A stretch of 64,000 bases of DNA from Porphyrobacter sp. AAP82. GTDB taxonomy: Bacteria > Pseudomonadota > Alphaproteobacteria > Sphingomonadales > Sphingomonadaceae. A model generated the notes under the pieces. The model saw nothing but the letters and a program-made list of their open reading frames with translations, was not told the origin of the DNA and did not search any database. The position numbers were made by a program, and so were the translations under genes. The stretch spans positions 62,001 through 126,000 of the forward strand of contig NZ_ANFX01000008.1 of NCBI RefSeq assembly GCF_000331285.1. Direction: 5' to 3'. Shown piece by piece: positions 11,288 through 16,724 of this stretch (position 1 is the stretch's first letter; every line of letters begins with the position of its first letter).

Positions 11288-11737
11288 TCAGCGCAAGTCG
11301 AGCTTTTCGATTTCAGCCACGAAGTCGGTCAGTTCCTTGATCGAGCTGTCGATGTCGTCGCGCTGCGCCTTCAGCTTGGCGATATGCGTGCGGCATTTCT
11401 CGATCGTGACGCGGCGCTGTTCCACGCGGCCGTCGTCGAGATCGTAGAGGTCGATCATCTCGCGGATCTCGGTCAGCGAAAAGCCGACATTCTTGGCGCG
11501 CATGATCCACGCGAGCCGCGCGCGGTCACGTTTGGAATAGACGCGGGTGAGCCCGACGCGCGCCGGGTTGATCAGACCCTCGTCCTCGTAGAAGCGCAGC
11601 GCGCGCGCGGTGCAGCCGAACTCCGAGGTCAGGTCGGAGATGGTGAAATGTTCGCGCTCGTGGACATCCGGCCGGTCAAGATGCGCACCGTTGCGGCGCG
11701 GTTCGGCGGCGGCGGGTTGAGCAGGAGCGGTAGCCAT
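11288..11737 (-). CDS. MerR family transcriptional regulator
   Basis: 149 residues: a disordered N-terminus of about 28 residues, then a MerR helix-turn-helix (FTISDLTSEFGCTARALRFYEDEGLI), the wing (VYSKRDRARLAWIMRAKNVGFSLTEIREMI) and a long dimerisation coiled coil to the end. There are no C-terminal cysteines, so it is not a metal sensor. It resembles the MerR regulators of fatty-acid and branched-chain amino-acid degradation (LiuR-like). Its position directly upstream of an acyl-CoA dehydrogenase supports that. An imperfect palindrome sits just upstream of the start codon and suggests autoregulation. Confidence 0.88.
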   Translation of the reverse strand: MATAPAQPAAAEPRRNGAHLDRPDVHEREHFTISDLTSEFGCTARALRFYEDEGLINPARVGLTRVYSKRDRARLAWIMRAKNVGFSLTEIREMIDLYDLDDGRVEQRRVTIEKCRTHIAKLKAQRDDIDSSIKELTDFVAEIEKLDLR

Positions 11738-11751
11738 GACGCGCGTCCTAC

Positions 11752-11767
11752 CTTACGTTTACGTGAG
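11752..11767 (-). promoter_or_regulatory. imperfect palindrome upstream of merR, likely operator
   Basis: CTTACGTTTACGTGAG matches its own reverse complement at 12 of 16 positions, with ACGT half-sites on either side. It lies 15 bases upstream of the MerR start and ends three bases before the hisI stop codon. LiuR/PsrA-type MerR operators are similar ACGT-rich palindromes, so autoregulation of merR and the acyl-CoA dehydrogenase gene is the likely role. Confidence 0.55.
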
Positions 11768-11769
11768 CG

Positions 11770-12165
11770 TCAAGTATCCTTGCGGCGCAGCGCCGGCTCG
11801 CCGTCGCCCTCAACGACTTCCCGGTAGAAGCAGGAACGCGCGCCGGTGTGGCACGTGGGGCCGGCCGGCCTGGCCCGAATCAGCAGCGCGTCCTGATCAC
11901 AATCGACCAGCATCCCCTCGAGCGCCAGATAGTGCCCCGAACTCTCGCCCTTCATCCACAAGGTCCCGCGCGACCGGGACCAGAAATGGACCTTGCGGCT
12001 CTGGAGCGTCTTTGCGAGCGCTTCGGCGTTCATGTGCGCCACCACCAGCACGGTGCCGTCGGCGGCATCGACCACGACCGCGGTCAGCAGCCCTGCCCCA
12101 TCGAATTTGGGTGCAAAGACAGGGCCCTTCTCGCGCTCTTCGGGAGTGAGGACAGGGTCGGGCAT
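11770..12165 (-). CDS. hisI: phosphoribosyl-AMP cyclohydrolase
   Basis: Third step of histidine biosynthesis: opens the purine ring of phosphoribosyl-AMP. The 131 residues form the stand-alone HisI without the HisE pyrophosphohydrolase domain. The conserved stretches are VLVVAHMNAEALAKTLQS, VHFWSRSRGTLWMKGE and the Zn/Mg site region LVDCDQDALLIRA followed by CHTGARSCFYRE, with all expected cysteines and aspartates. No other his gene is in view. It is followed within 33 bases by merR on the same strand, so readthrough is possible. Confidence 0.96.
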   Translation of the reverse strand: MPDPVLTPEEREKGPVFAPKFDGAGLLTAVVVDAADGTVLVVAHMNAEALAKTLQSRKVHFWSRSRGTLWMKGESSGHYLALEGMLVDCDQDALLIRARPAGPTCHTGARSCFYREVVEGDGEPALRRKDT

Positions 12166-12289
12166 GCAGGCAACTCCAGAAAGGGCCGGGGCCGGTCATG
12201 CAAGGATTGTTGCAAGCACACAACAGGACGTCACAAAAAATTGCGCGCGCCCAGGTTTCGTCTTCCGCGTCAGGCAAGTCGGTGGAACA

Positions 12290-12526
12290 AAACCGCCGGA
12301 GCCTTCGCAAGGGGTTCTCCGCCGGACTTGTGGCACCGCCCGGTGCCACGTTCAGGGGGTGACCGGACCGCAGATTTGGCAGCGGGGTGCCAGCGCGACC
12401 GGTTGAACGATAGGGACTGGATCCCGGCAGCGAAGCTAGGGGTCGCTGCCTCTGCTCGCCAGAGAGGATCCGCACCGTTTCGTCACGTGGCGCCCGGGGC
12501 CGAAAGGCCTCGGGCGTTATGTTTTT
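12290..12526 (+). ncRNA. candidate structured RNA between hisI and comF
   Basis: The 376-base gap 12166-12541 has no convincing protein gene but a run of hairpins ending in a plus-strand terminator. In order: CCGCCGGAG/CTCCGCCGG (12293-12325, one mismatch), GTGGCACC/GGTGCCAC with a GCCC loop (12330-12349), TGGCA/TGCCA (12377-12392), and an apparent three-way junction closed by GGATCC at 12419 and GGATCC at 12466. That junction encloses GGCAGCGA/TCGCTGCC and CTCTG/CAGAG. All genes from hisI back to the hydrolase at 8.4 kb, and comF, are on the minus strand, so the terminator has no coding partner. The first part, 12166-12289, shows only an inverted TGTTG/CAACA. I do not recognise the RNA, and the 5-prime end is a guess. 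Confidence 0.5.
12491..12526 (+). terminator. intrinsic terminator facing right
   Basis: Stem CGCCCGGGGCC (12491-12501) and GGCCTCGGGCG (12506-12516) with a GAAA tetraloop and one G-T pair, followed by TTATGTTTTT. The T tract is on the plus strand only, so it ends a rightward transcript that starts within the hisI-comF gap. Confidence 0.8.
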
Positions 12527-12541
12527 ACGGGCCGGCAGACC

Positions 12542-13237
12542 TCACGGATGCGCGAGCTTGTGATCCTCCTCGACCCGCGCAAAGCAGGCCAGCGCGACCG
12601 ATGCGGGCGCTGCCGCCGAGATGGCGGCAAGACAGGCGCGGCTGGTCGCACCGCTGGTGAGCACGTCGTCGACGAGCACCACGTCGCGTCCCCTGAGCCG
12701 CGCCGCCGCGCCCGGCGCTAGGCGGATCGCGCCGGTCAGCACCCGCTCGCGCGCCTCGCGGCCCAACCCGCCAAGGTTGGGCGTGCGTCGGAACCGCATC
12801 AGCGCCGCGACCGCCGCCTCGCCCTTGCCCTGCCGCGCCAGCGCCTGCGCAAGCAGCGCCGCCTGGTTGAAGCCCCGGCTCCACAGCCGCCAGCGGTGGA
12901 GCGGCACCGGCACCAGCAGCGGCAGTGGCTGGCCTGCCTCGGGTTCGGGCATCCGCGCTGCGATCAGCCGCGCCAGCAGCCCGCACAGTGCGATCCGCCC
13001 GCCGTGCTTGTAGGCCAGCACCAGCTTGCGCGAGGTCTCGTTGTAATAGGTCGCGGCGTAGACCGGCACGGTATGGCCAGCCACCTGCGCATGTTCGGGC
13101 ACCTCGAGCGTGCTCCAGCAATCGGTGCACAGCCCCGCCTGCCCCGCGACCGCTGCCCCGCACGACGGACAGCGCGGCGGATAGATGAAATCCACCAGCG
13201 GGGCCATCTGGCGGGCAAGGTGAAGGGCCGCTGCCAT
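12542..13237 (-). CDS. comF: ComF family protein (phosphoribosyltransferase fold)
   Basis: 231 residues. An N-terminal zinc-finger (CPSCGAA and CTDCW) precedes a phosphoribosyltransferase domain whose PRPP loop is DVVLVDDVLTSGAT near residue 190, with the VPVPLHRWRLWSRGFNQ segment typical of ComF. In naturally competent bacteria ComF takes part in DNA uptake or processing; many non-competent bacteria also carry it, so the role here is unclear. It diverges from the methyltransferase gene with 56 bases between starts. The start MAAALHLARQM is an ATG with several in-frame alternatives just downstream. Confidence 0.88.
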   Translation of the reverse strand: MAAALHLARQMAPLVDFIYPPRCPSCGAAVAGQAGLCTDCWSTLEVPEHAQVAGHTVPVYAATYYNETSRKLVLAYKHGGRIALCGLLARLIAARMPEPEAGQPLPLLVPVPLHRWRLWSRGFNQAALLAQALARQGKGEAAVAALMRFRRTPNLGGLGREARERVLTGAIRLAPGAAARLRGRDVVLVDDVLTSGATSRACLAAISAAAPASVALACFARVEEDHKLAHP

Positions 13238-13293
13238 GCGCGCCAGTGTCGCACGTCTTGCAACCAGCAGGCAAGCGCGGCAGGGCGGCGCGG

Positions 13294-14061
13294 ATGAACA
13301 CCCCCGCCGTCCCCACGATCTTCGCCGAGACCCGCCGCCTCGCCCGGGCCCGCCGCGCGGCGCAGCGGCAGCGGGCGTCTGCCGATCCGGCGCGGTTCAT
13401 CCTTGATGACATCGCCGAGGACATGATCGACCGGCTCGGCTTCGTGCGCCACATCCCGGCTCGCGCGCTGCTCATCGGCCACGGCGGAGAGGCGCTCGCG
13501 GACTACCTGACCAAAGGCGGGGCCGCGGTCGCAAGCGAACCCCTGGTCAATCCGGCCGAGCCGCTGGCTGGCGGCCCATTCGACTTCATCGGCGTTAGCG
13601 GCCAGCTCGATGCGGTCAATGACCTGCCCGGCGCGCTCATCCACCTGCGCGGCGCGCTCACCCCTGGCGGCCTTGTCATCGCCAGCTTCATCGGCGGCCA
13701 GAGCCTCGGCGCCCTGCGCGCCGCGATGCTCGCCGCCGAGCCAGATCGTCCCGCGGCCCGGCTCCACCCGCTGGTCGACGCCCGCGCCGCCCCGGCCCTC
13801 CTCCAGCGCGCCGGCTGGAAGGACCCGGTGGTCGATACGCACAGCCTGACCGTGCGCTACGGATCGTTCGGCAGATTGGTCGCGGACCTGCGTGACCAAG
13901 GCCTCGGCAATGCCCTCGCCCGGCCCGCCGGCGCGCTGGGCAAGGCCGCCTTGACCCGCGCCCGCGCCGCCTTCGCCGCCCGCGCCGATGCCGATGGCAA
14001 GACCGCCGACACCTTCGAGATCGTCACCCTCACCGGACGGCGATCCCTCGCCGGAACCTAG
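13294..14061 (+). CDS. SAM-dependent methyltransferase (BioC/NDUFAF5-like)
   Basis: 255 residues. The N-terminus (IFAETRRLARARRAAQRQ) and the spacing to a class I methyltransferase core resemble the BioC/NDUFAF5 group. The glycine-rich SAM loop is degenerate (ALLIGHGGEAL), the later acidic/aromatic motif reads GPFDFIGVSGQLDAVNDLPG and the fourth strand GGLVIASFIGG. NDUFAF5 relatives hydroxylate or methylate complex I subunits, but the target here is unknown. The ATG start follows the comF divergent gap. Its stop overlaps the convergent ppdK stop by four bases. Confidence 0.75.
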   Translation: MNTPAVPTIFAETRRLARARRAAQRQRASADPARFILDDIAEDMIDRLGFVRHIPARALLIGHGGEALADYLTKGGAAVASEPLVNPAEPLAGGPFDFIGVSGQLDAVNDLPGALIHLRGALTPGGLVIASFIGGQSLGALRAAMLAAEPDRPAARLHPLVDARAAPALLQRAGWKDPVVDTHSLTVRYGSFGRLVADLRDQGLGNALARPAGALGKAALTRARAAFAARADADGKTADTFEIVTLTGRRSLAGT

Positions 14062-16724
14062 GCCTTCTTCAACGCCGCCTGCGCCGCCGCAAGCCGCGCG
14101 ATCGGCACGCGGTAGGGCGAAGCGCTGACGTAATCGAGGCCGACACTCTCGCAGAAGGCGATGCTAGCCGGGTCGCCGCCATGCTCGCCGCAGATGCCGA
14201 GCTTGATGTCGGGCCGCGTCATGCGCCCGCGCTCTGCCGCGAGTTCGACCAGCTGACCGACGCCCTCGATATCGAGGCTCACGAAAGGATCGCGCGGGAA
14301 GATGCCCTTTTCGACATAGACGCTGAGGAACCGCGCCGCATCGTCGCGGCTGACGCCGAGTGTGGTCTGGGTGAGGTCATTGGTGCCGAACGAGAAGAAC
14401 GCGCCTTCCTCGGCGATCTCGCCCGCCATCAGCGCGGCGCGCGGCAGTTCGATCATCGTGCCCACGAGGTATTCGACCCGCGTGCCAACCTCGGCGAACA
14501 CGGCTTCGGCTTCCTTGTCGACCAGCGCCTTGAGGATCGCGAGCTCGCGCTTGGTGGCGACCAGCGGGATCATGATTTCCGGGAGCGGCGCCTCGCCAGA
14601 AGCCTGCATGACCGCGCAGGCCGCCTCGAAGATCGCGCGGGCCTGCATCGCGTAGATCTCGGGGAAGGTGATGCCCAAGCGGCAACCACGGTGGCCCAGC
14701 ATGGGGTTGAACTCGTGCAGCTCGCCCGCGCGGCGCTTCAGGTGATCGACCCCGAGGCCGGTGGCGTCCGCCAGCTCGGCGAACTCCTCGTCGGCGTGCG
14801 GCAGGAATTCATGCAGCGGCGGATCGAGCAGGCGGATCGTGCAAGGCAGCCCCGCCATCACCTCGAAGATCGCGGTGAAGTCCGCACGCTGTTCGGGCAG
14901 CAGCCCCTCCAGCGCCCGGCGGCGCCCCGCCTCGTCTTCGGCGAGGATCATCTGGCGCACGAGGCTGATGCGCGAGGCTTCGAAGAACATGTGCTCGGTG
15001 CGGCACAGACCAATGCCCTCGGCCCCGAACTGGCGCGCCATGCGGCAGTCTGCCGGCGTCTCGGCATTGGTGCGCACCTTCATGCGCCGCAGCTTGTCCG
15101 CCCACACCATCAGCGTCCCGAAATCGCCCGCCAGCTCCGGCTCGACCGTCGGCACGATGCCGAGCATCACCTGCCCCGTCGCCCCATCGAGGGTGATGGC
15201 ATCGCCCTCTTTGAGCTCGGTGGTCCCGATGCGCAGGGTGCGGCTTGCCCGGTCGATCGACACCGCGCCCGCTCCCGAGACGCAAGGGCGCCCCATCCCG
15301 CGCGCCACCACCGCCGCGTGGCTCGTCATCCCGCCGCGCGCGGTGAGGATGCCCTGGGCTGCGTGCATCCCGTGGATGTCTTCCGGGCTGGTCTCGACCC
15401 GCACCAGGATCACCTTCTCGCCGCGGCCCGCCCATTGCTCGGCGGTGTCGGCATCGAGCACGATCCGGCCCGCCGCTGCCCCCGGCGAGGCGGGGAGCCC
15501 GGTGGTCAGCACATTGCGCTCGGCCTTCGGGTCAAGCGTGGGGTGGAGCAATTGGTCCAGCGCCATCGGATCCACGCGCCGCACCGCCTCGCGCTCGTCG
15601 ATCAGGCCCTCGGCCACCATGTCGACCGCCATCTTCAGCGCAGCCTTGGCGGTGCGCTTGCCCGAGCGGGTCTGGAGCATCCACAGCTTCCCGCGCTCGA
15701 CGGTGAACTCGATGTCCTGCATGTCCTTGTAGTGGAGTTCCAGCAGGTCGAACACGCGGGCGAGTTCGGTGTAGGCCTCAGGCAGCGCCTCTTCCATCGA
15801 CGCCGGCTTGGCGCCGGCCGCCGCGCGCGCCGCCTTGGTCAGGTATTGCGGTGTGCGGATGCCGGCGACCACATCCTCGCCTTGCGCGTTGATCAGGTAC
15901 TCGCCGTAGTAGGCCCGCTCGCCGGTCGCCGGATCGCGGGTGAAGGCGACGCCGGTGGCGCTGATCTCGCCCATGTTGCCGAACACCATCGCCTGCACGT
16001 TGACCGCGGTGCCCCAGTCGCCCGGGATGTCGTTCAAACGCCGGTAGACCTTGGCGCGGTCCGAATCCCAGCTGTCGAACACCGCGCGGATCGCGCCCCA
16101 CAGCTGCTCGGTCACATCCTGCGGGAAGTCGCGGCCCAGTTCCTCGGCGACGATCCCCTTGTATTCGCCCACCAGCGCCTGCCAGTCTTCGGCGGCCATC
16201 TCGGTGTCGTTGTAGAAGCCCTTGTCTTCCTTGGCGATCTCGAGCGCTTCTTCGAACAGCCCGTGATCGATCCCGAGCACGACATCCGAATACATCTGGA
16301 TGAAGCGGCGGTAGCTGTCCCAGGCGAAACGCGCGTCGCCGCTCGAGGCGGCGAGGCCCTCGACGGTCGCATCGTTCAGCCCGAGGTTGAGCACCGTGTC
16401 CATCATCCCCGGCATCGACACCCGCGCGCCCGATCGGACCGAGACCAGGAGCGGGTCCGCCGCCTCGCCGAAGCGCTTGCCGACCGCCGCCTCGACATGG
16501 GCGAGCGCATCGGCGACCGCTGCCTTCAGCCCCTCGGAAAAGCCCGCACCATCGCGCAGATAGGCGACGCATTCCTCGGTGGTGATGGTGAAGCCCGGGG
16601 GCACCGGCAGGCCGATCGACGCCATCTCGGCAAGGTTGGCGCCCTTGCCGCCGGTGACGGTCTTGTCCTTCTGGCGCGGATCGGTGTGCGCGGCGCTGCC
16701 GCCGAAGGGGTAGACTGTTTGCAC
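14058..16724 (-). CDS. ppdK: pyruvate, phosphate dikinase
   Basis: 888 residues, full family length. Interconverts pyruvate, ATP and phosphate with PEP, AMP and diphosphate, so it links glycolysis and gluconeogenesis. In order: ATP-grasp domain with GGKGANLAEM near residue 25 and GVAFTRDPATGE; the swivelling phosphohistidine domain with GGMTSHAAVVARGMGRPCVSG (catalytic His in TSHAA); and the C-terminal PEP/pyruvate barrel with CRTEHMF, GHRGCRLG and FGTNDLTQTTLG. The start MQTVYPFGG is an ATG with no competing upstream start. glyS lies 76 bases upstream on the same strand. Confidence 0.97.
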   Translation of the reverse strand: MQTVYPFGGSAAHTDPRQKDKTVTGGKGANLAEMASIGLPVPPGFTITTEECVAYLRDGAGFSEGLKAAVADALAHVEAAVGKRFGEAADPLLVSVRSGARVSMPGMMDTVLNLGLNDATVEGLAASSGDARFAWDSYRRFIQMYSDVVLGIDHGLFEEALEIAKEDKGFYNDTEMAAEDWQALVGEYKGIVAEELGRDFPQDVTEQLWGAIRAVFDSWDSDRAKVYRRLNDIPGDWGTAVNVQAMVFGNMGEISATGVAFTRDPATGERAYYGEYLINAQGEDVVAGIRTPQYLTKAARAAAGAKPASMEEALPEAYTELARVFDLLELHYKDMQDIEFTVERGKLWMLQTRSGKRTAKAALKMAVDMVAEGLIDEREAVRRVDPMALDQLLHPTLDPKAERNVLTTGLPASPGAAAGRIVLDADTAEQWAGRGEKVILVRVETSPEDIHGMHAAQGILTARGGMTSHAAVVARGMGRPCVSGAGAVSIDRASRTLRIGTTELKEGDAITLDGATGQVMLGIVPTVEPELAGDFGTLMVWADKLRRMKVRTNAETPADCRMARQFGAEGIGLCRTEHMFFEASRISLVRQMILAEDEAGRRRALEGLLPEQRADFTAIFEVMAGLPCTIRLLDPPLHEFLPHADEEFAELADATGLGVDHLKRRAGELHEFNPMLGHRGCRLGITFPEIYAMQARAIFEAACAVMQASGEAPLPEIMIPLVATKRELAILKALVDKEAEAVFAEVGTRVEYLVGTMIELPRAALMAGEIAEEGAFFSFGTNDLTQTTLGVSRDDAARFLSVYVEKGIFPRDPFVSLDIEGVGQLVELAAERGRMTRPDIKLGICGEHGGDPASIAFCESVGLDYVSASPYRVPIARLAAAQAALKKA

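Follow-up and report, generated by a model that had tools for sequence, protein, structure and literature searches.

A covarying non-coding RNA with exposed G-tracts between hisI and comF, widespread in one family of sphingomonads

In bacteria, regulatory RNAs of the CsrB/RsmY type carry repeated motifs for which CsrA is the known protein, while LhrC of Listeria is a multi-site trans-encoded sRNA with repeated seeds that are C-rich and directed against Shine-Dalgarno sites. Sphingomonads are bacteria known for the breakdown of pollutants and lignin. The SuhB RNA of Sphingopyxis granuli TFA, with a length of 61 nt, is described as a trans-acting sRNA on experimental evidence (PMC6563040). Here, we analyzed a stretch of 64,000 nucleotides from Porphyrobacter sp. 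AAP82 (the window), in which a structured, rightward element of about 230 nt is located between the genes hisI and comF.

A scan of the 64-kb window with 4227 Rfam families brought only a tRNA to its gathering score, and the three matches obtained at E ≤ 10 in the segment 12160-12600 had scores far under their cut-offs. The initial annotation saw no resemblance to 6S RNA, SRP RNA, tmRNA or RNase P, and this was borne out by the Rfam and ARAGORN searches. 6S RNA (RF00013) was matched neither at the gathering score anywhere in the window nor at E ≤ 10 within the segment 12160-12600, and the 6S RNA of this genome was located elsewhere (G000:C8:208140-208312, 52.5 bits), ahead of a 5-formyltetrahydrofolate cyclo-ligase gene. 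The tmRNA, RNase P and SRP RNA were rejected for lack of an Rfam match at the cut-off; the single RNase P-related match, RNaseP-T, had 11.1 bits where 60 are required, and no tmRNA was found by ARAGORN in the window. SuhB (RF00519) gave no match at the RNA and was recovered at another site in the genome (76 nt, G000:C21:52971-53046). A literature search by title and the start of the abstract, with subscription papers and supplements outside its scope, returned nothing on this RNA. Because there was no Rfam match at the gathering score and no match in the literature, we place the RNA in a new family, within the known kind of structured bacterial non-coding RNAs.

The features of the locus are listed in Table 1. 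The presence of a structured rightward element between hisI and comF was confirmed, and reading and folding of the region agreed with the initial annotation in the coordinates, the hairpins, the three-way junction closed by GGATCC halves and the terminator on the plus strand. The RNA converges on comF, with 15 nt between the two ends, and its start is head-to-head with hisI. The name comF was taken from the initial annotation, and the domains identified agree with it. It was also stated that every protein gene nearby is on the minus strand, which holds for hisI, comF, a MerR-type gene, an acyl-CoA dehydrogenase gene and the ORF at 14058-16724, but not for an ORF at 13294-14061. The latter, located past comF on the plus strand, is conserved, with a tblastn match in 55/55 loci of the genus, our own included, and had no Pfam or NCBIfam match.

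Table 1. Features of the hisI-comF locus (positions in the window; the basis of each assignment is given in the last column).
Feature	Position	Strand	Basis or remark
hisI, upstream divergent neighbour	11770..12165	-	PF01502 PRA-CH, E 7e-32
Palindromic box TTGTTGCAAGCACACAACA (TTGTTGCAnGATAACCACA in more distant genera)	12207..12225	+	~80 bp ahead of the inferred RNA start
Promoter-like elements CTTCCG and TGGAACAA	12262..12289	+	Genus consensus CTTY and TGRRAC
RNA gene	12293..12526	+	~230 nt from the inferred start to the terminator T-run; conserved block and covarying structure
Hairpin P1	12293..12325	+	Own fold; stems with differing letters in most of 55 singly folded loci, by eye
Hairpin P2 (GTGGCACC/GGTGCCAC)	12330..12349	+	Own fold; single folds of 55 loci, by eye
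Motif GTTCAGGGGG, G-tract 1	12350..12359	+	Unpaired in the consensus; columns ≥90% to 100% conserved, 40 sequences
Hairpin P3	12360..12404	+	Helices 1-3: 12/13 pairs with two-sided changes
P3 loop GCGGGG, G-tract 2	12382-12387	+	
Predicted long-range helix ACGA/TCGT	12407..12410 with 12480-12483	+	No variation in 3/4 pairs, one G-U in the fourth (40 sequences)
Three-way junction	12419..12471	+	Helices 6-8: 16/16 pairs with two-sided changes
Junction closing stem GGATCC/GGATCC	12419-12424/12466-12471	+	
Junction hairpin with loop AAGCTAGGGGT, G-tract 3	12433-12443	+	Short second hairpin also in the junction
Stretch TTTCGTCACG preceding the terminator	12478..12487	+	TTCGTCACG invariant in 40/40
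Intrinsic terminator	12485..12526	+	17-bp stem 12485-12522, Ts to 12526; helix 9 99.8% paired
comF, downstream convergent neighbour	12542..13237	-	PF18912 and PF00156

Folding of the single sequence is suggestive when taken alone, with a z-score of -2.93 for the plus strand and -2.35 for the minus strand, and with 2/200 shuffles folding as well in each case. Since this is only moderately unusual, the status of the RNA rests mainly on comparative evidence. Among the 55 loci of the genus, two (L005, L018) did not match the end pattern and were dropped; 51 sequences were kept by a 97% filter, and 40 of these were aligned (alignment A1) after 11 had been omitted by eye, mostly close relatives along with locus L030. 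In the 50-pair consensus structure predicted by RNAalifold, from which P1 and P2 were left out for the pair count, 95.8% of the cells were paired, and 32 of the 50 pairs had two-sided compensatory changes (213 cells). None of 500 shuffles reached the observed values, and pairing dropped to 34.8-49.8% of the cells when the partners were slid by 1-3 columns. Covariation thus gives strong support to hairpin P3 and to each of the three junction arms, whereas the long-range helix (ACGA/UCGU) is compatible with the data but hardly varies, and is therefore not proven in this way. The 17-bp stem and the T-run of the terminator are plain in the fold, although a simple scan of 11700-13300 returned no terminator-like site.

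The initial annotation had proposed a non-coding transcript and had staked this reading on conservation of the hairpins with compensatory changes, which is what the alignment contains. Compensatory helices, a terminator of its own and the lack of a conserved reading frame are the features of an independent structured non-coding RNA, and judged from these comparisons it is almost certainly a real one. One exception among the relatives is L030 (genome G007, minus strand, near 1506-1708), in which P2 and the GTTCAGGGGG motif with G-tract 1 are missing; the gap may be due either to deletion in nature or to faulty assembly.

Of the 119 G-runs of four or more located before the terminator, 116 were unpaired in the consensus structure, as compared to 49% of positions overall. 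The pattern is less clear-cut for runs of three or more (126 unpaired and 68 paired, 126/194), and G accounted for 41% of the unpaired and 34% of the paired positions. About three exposed G-tracts per RNA between stems that change in sequence would fit repeated contact sites, and near-invariant unpaired motifs between variable stems look like a binding surface. As would be expected for the seeds of a trans-acting sRNA, the motif GTTCAGGGGG and the loop AAGTTAGGGGG are near-invariant in the genus and unpaired in the consensus structure.

We searched for the RNA in other genomes, using DNA similarity, an exact core sequence and covariance models. In the DNA search of 100 genomes, our own included, 56 genomes were matched, all of them within the genus (56/61); five genomes of the genus and all 39 genomes from other families of the order were without a match. 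In 55/61 genomes of the genus, and thereby in all 55 genus loci, the RNA lay between the two genes and on the strand opposite to them, and the remaining matched genome (G054) had weak matches only, in loci without hisI and comF. An exact search with an 18-base core recovered 90 stretches of named genomes, mostly from Erythrobacter, Qipengyuania, Porphyrobacter, Altererythrobacter or Pelagerythrobacter. The order hisI-RNA-comF was present in 81 of these, seven more were cut at an edge with one neighbour left, and two, binned as Akkermansia and Caulobacterales and lacking both genes, were taken as chance matches. No viral contig was recovered with the exact 18-mer and no plasmid by blastn.

Erythrobacter is placed in the Erythrobacteraceae, Sphingomonadales, in the NCBI taxonomy, and the wider family searched (f1, at least 96 genera) is one that we take to be the Sphingomonadaceae in the GTDB sense. 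A covariance model, R1, had matches in 201/397 genomes of this family, representing at least 67 of the 96 sampled genera, and in 66 of 196 genomes of the order, every one of them from the same family. The model does not recognize the 6S RNA of our genome, over which it scores at most 3 bits. Among the matches listed, there was one R1 match per genome. In 70 inspected loci, which include our own genome and some of the earlier loci, hisI and comF were both present in 60, comF only in one and neither in nine. The RNA in the latter nine loci is head-to-head, by coordinates, with proS (six loci) or lolC/E (three loci). These nine RNAs have in common the sequence GGTTC with a following GGG, at the place of the GTTCAGGGGG motif, and TCGTCAC from the stretch preceding the terminator, each invariant in 9/9, while the three-way arm is missing from most of them in the alignment. 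No Rfam match was obtained for any of the nine at E ≤ 0.01.

A second model, R2, was built from these nine RNAs. In its best 31 loci, proS or lolC/E was present in 29 (five of the 31 had been used to build the model, L244 is truncated, L255 has neither gene and the match in L247 is about 1 kb off). Across the class, 24/385 genomes were matched by R2, five of them from the family. At the 22 loci of the remaining 19 genomes, GGTTC(A/G/T)GGG was never present close to the match, and TCGTCAC was present at one (L277); the matches, with up to 37.2 bits, appear by eye to be ordinary GC-rich terminators. In other Alphaproteobacteria (L264-L284, L286), false covariance matches arise from similar terminators of the form CGCCCGG...CCGGGCG, in which a GAAA loop is frequent. 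Because R2 reaches 37.2 bits outside the family, its matches in 83/96 genera of the family were judged to be an inflated figure, and R1 was relied on instead.

The R2 matches listed were mostly one per genome, with two or three in some. Because most genomes have a single match, we interpret the proS/lolC form as the hisI-comF gene moved to another location, not as an additional gene. The score of R2 for the RNA of our own genome, 38.9 bits, is close to the false-positive level of 37.2 bits, and the case for one relocated gene is built on the shared motifs, the nine R1 loci in one context, the 29/31 R2 loci and the lack of the palindromic box at hisI. For the last point, 20 genomes selected for having the RNA elsewhere were queried, and the box was found within about 200 bases of hisI in none of the 19 that contained hisI. 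The proS/lolC context was seen in 17 of these 19; the other two are G182 and G314, the latter with neither gene in its locus. In the two such loci tested (L288, L293), hisI is divergent from purF and not beside the RNA and comF. The core motifs are kept after relocation to proS/lolC, which argues that the RNA is independent of hisI and comF.

Upstream of the RNA, the gap between the palindromic box and CTT is exactly 36 nt in 55/55 Erythrobacter loci, and the distance from CTT to TG is constant in 54/55, with variable letters in between. Exact spacing with variable letters speaks for contacts between DNA and protein over an RNA element, and the palindromic box is probably an activator site. 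In a broader set of 42 hisI-comF loci (from 52, leaving out the nine non-syntenic loci and L123, and with 4/42 from our own genus), the box TTGTTGCAnGATAACCACA was matched exactly by pattern in 35 loci, with 1-3 mismatches in six, of which a match with three can be due to chance, and in one locus (L112) not at all. The counterpart of TGRRAC in the distant genera is, by eye, TGGRAT-like. A sigma-70 promoter scan of 11700-13300 predicted no promoter. The main promoter of Zymomonas is described as TTGNNN and TANNNN (PMC7566282), which is a poor fit to the elements of the hisI-comF form. The proS/lolC form has a conserved TGACA that resembles a -35 element. The box had five sites with at most one mismatch in our own genome, two of them exact, one being that of the RNA and the other in coding DNA read by eye as gltB. 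A role of the box in a wider regulon was rejected after inspection of the two exact sites.

Based on the covariation, the fixed promoter, the relocation, the lack of a conserved frame and the unpaired G-runs, we favor, with a probability of roughly 0.4, a stand-alone RNA of about 230 nt that acts in trans through G-rich contact sites, by base pairing. The gene, usually in one copy per genome and kept across one family (Sphingomonadaceae in the GTDB sense), would be controlled at its start, in the hisI-comF form, through binding of a regulator to the palindromic box near -80. The transcript, ending at its own terminator, would form a scaffold from hairpins and a three-way junction, as shown by covariation, along with the predicted long-range helix, and would usually leave three G-rich stretches unpaired, as in the consensus structure. 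Together with the GUUC and UUUCGUCAC motifs, these stretches would be offered to partners, with pairing to C-rich parts of other RNAs, and thereby altered translation or stability, as the preferred mode. RNA partners seem slightly more likely than a protein, and we assume that one mechanism is shared by the hisI-comF and proS/lolC forms, whose arms differ much. Two particular targets were examined. Pairing with the 3' tail of 16S rRNA (40 shuffles each) had a mean z of -1.40, -0.40 and +0.22 in three groups, with values below -1.64 for 25/53 Erythrobacter, 5/39 other hisI-comF and 0/9 proS/lolC RNAs, and mimicry of a Shine-Dalgarno sequence is thus suggestive within Erythrobacter only; the pairing is not conserved across the groups, and this reading was rejected. 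A sponge for SuhB was rejected, as pairing was not favored (mean z of +0.73 and +0.37, with 0/53 and 0/9 below -1.64).

The same unpaired motifs could equally be bound by protein, and a tentative alternative is that the G-tracts load several copies of an RNA-binding protein, either sequestering it by the logic of CsrB/RsmY or building a ribonucleoprotein. Similar motifs repeated in the loops of a covarying scaffold would suit such a role, as would wide conservation with usually one match per genome, as in housekeeping ribonucleoproteins. However, CsrA (PF02599) was identified in 0/21 genomes, our own included (13 from the genus and eight from other families of the order), by a search in which 3/14 control genomes were positive, and the loop consensus sequences GCGGGG and AAGTTAGGGGG in alignment A1 have GGGG without a conserved GGA. 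A GGA is contained in the internal-loop stretch GATGAGGGA. Sequestration of CsrA itself was rejected because no CsrA was found in the 21 genomes. It is conceivable, albeit unlikely, that the G-tract scaffold, perhaps folding together, loads a protein into a family-wide RNA-protein particle of a new class, with its own regulator at the TTGTTGCAnGATAACCACA box; if so, the particle would be as central to sphingomonads as 6S RNA is elsewhere.

Folding of the G-tracts on each other is also at the core of another explanation, in which the joined tracts form an RNA G-quadruplex that serves as the functional element or that senses either K+ or a ligand. Each RNA does contain two to five unpaired G-runs of three or more, but there are three such runs in 29/40 RNAs and four or five in only eight, and the runs are far apart, making this explanation improbable. 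We give slightly less credence still to an element that acts on comF or hisI in cis or as antisense, by which convergent transcription or overlap would dampen comF: the arrangement at both ends of the RNA is in its favor, but neither coding region is overlapped, the RNA has its own terminator, and it persists beside proS or lolC/E where hisI is found without it. The least probable reading is an mRNA for a small protein or a dual-function RNA. Although the base in front of TGRRAC (window 12282-12288) is A or G in 53/55 loci, so that the element resembles a start codon, the frame that it opens ranges from 1 to 88 codons across the 55 loci and the longest frames listed differ in place and sequence. 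The coding reading was rejected, as no reading frame is conserved in the 55 loci.

That a strongly covarying RNA with no Rfam match occurs in 67 or more of the 96 genera sampled suggests that a regulator of one large family has been overlooked. Models R1 and R2, the hisI-comF and proS/lolC contexts and the upstream box provide the means to test its expression, partners and regulator directly in cultured strains. Compared to the described systems, the RNA resembles 6S RNA in its length (about 200 nt), its structured fold and its separate genomic location, but differs in having no match to RF00013. It is a sphingomonad RNA like SuhB, but with another location, sequence and size (61 nt or 76 nt for SuhB, as compared to about 230 nt). 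With CsrB/RsmY it shares a motif that is repeated in several loops of a scaffold, the motif being a G-tract here and GGA there, where the partner is CsrA, not found in the 21 genomes searched. Finally, as in LhrC, a short seed recurs in several loops and a terminator is present, but the loops are G-rich in this RNA and the seeds C-rich in LhrC.
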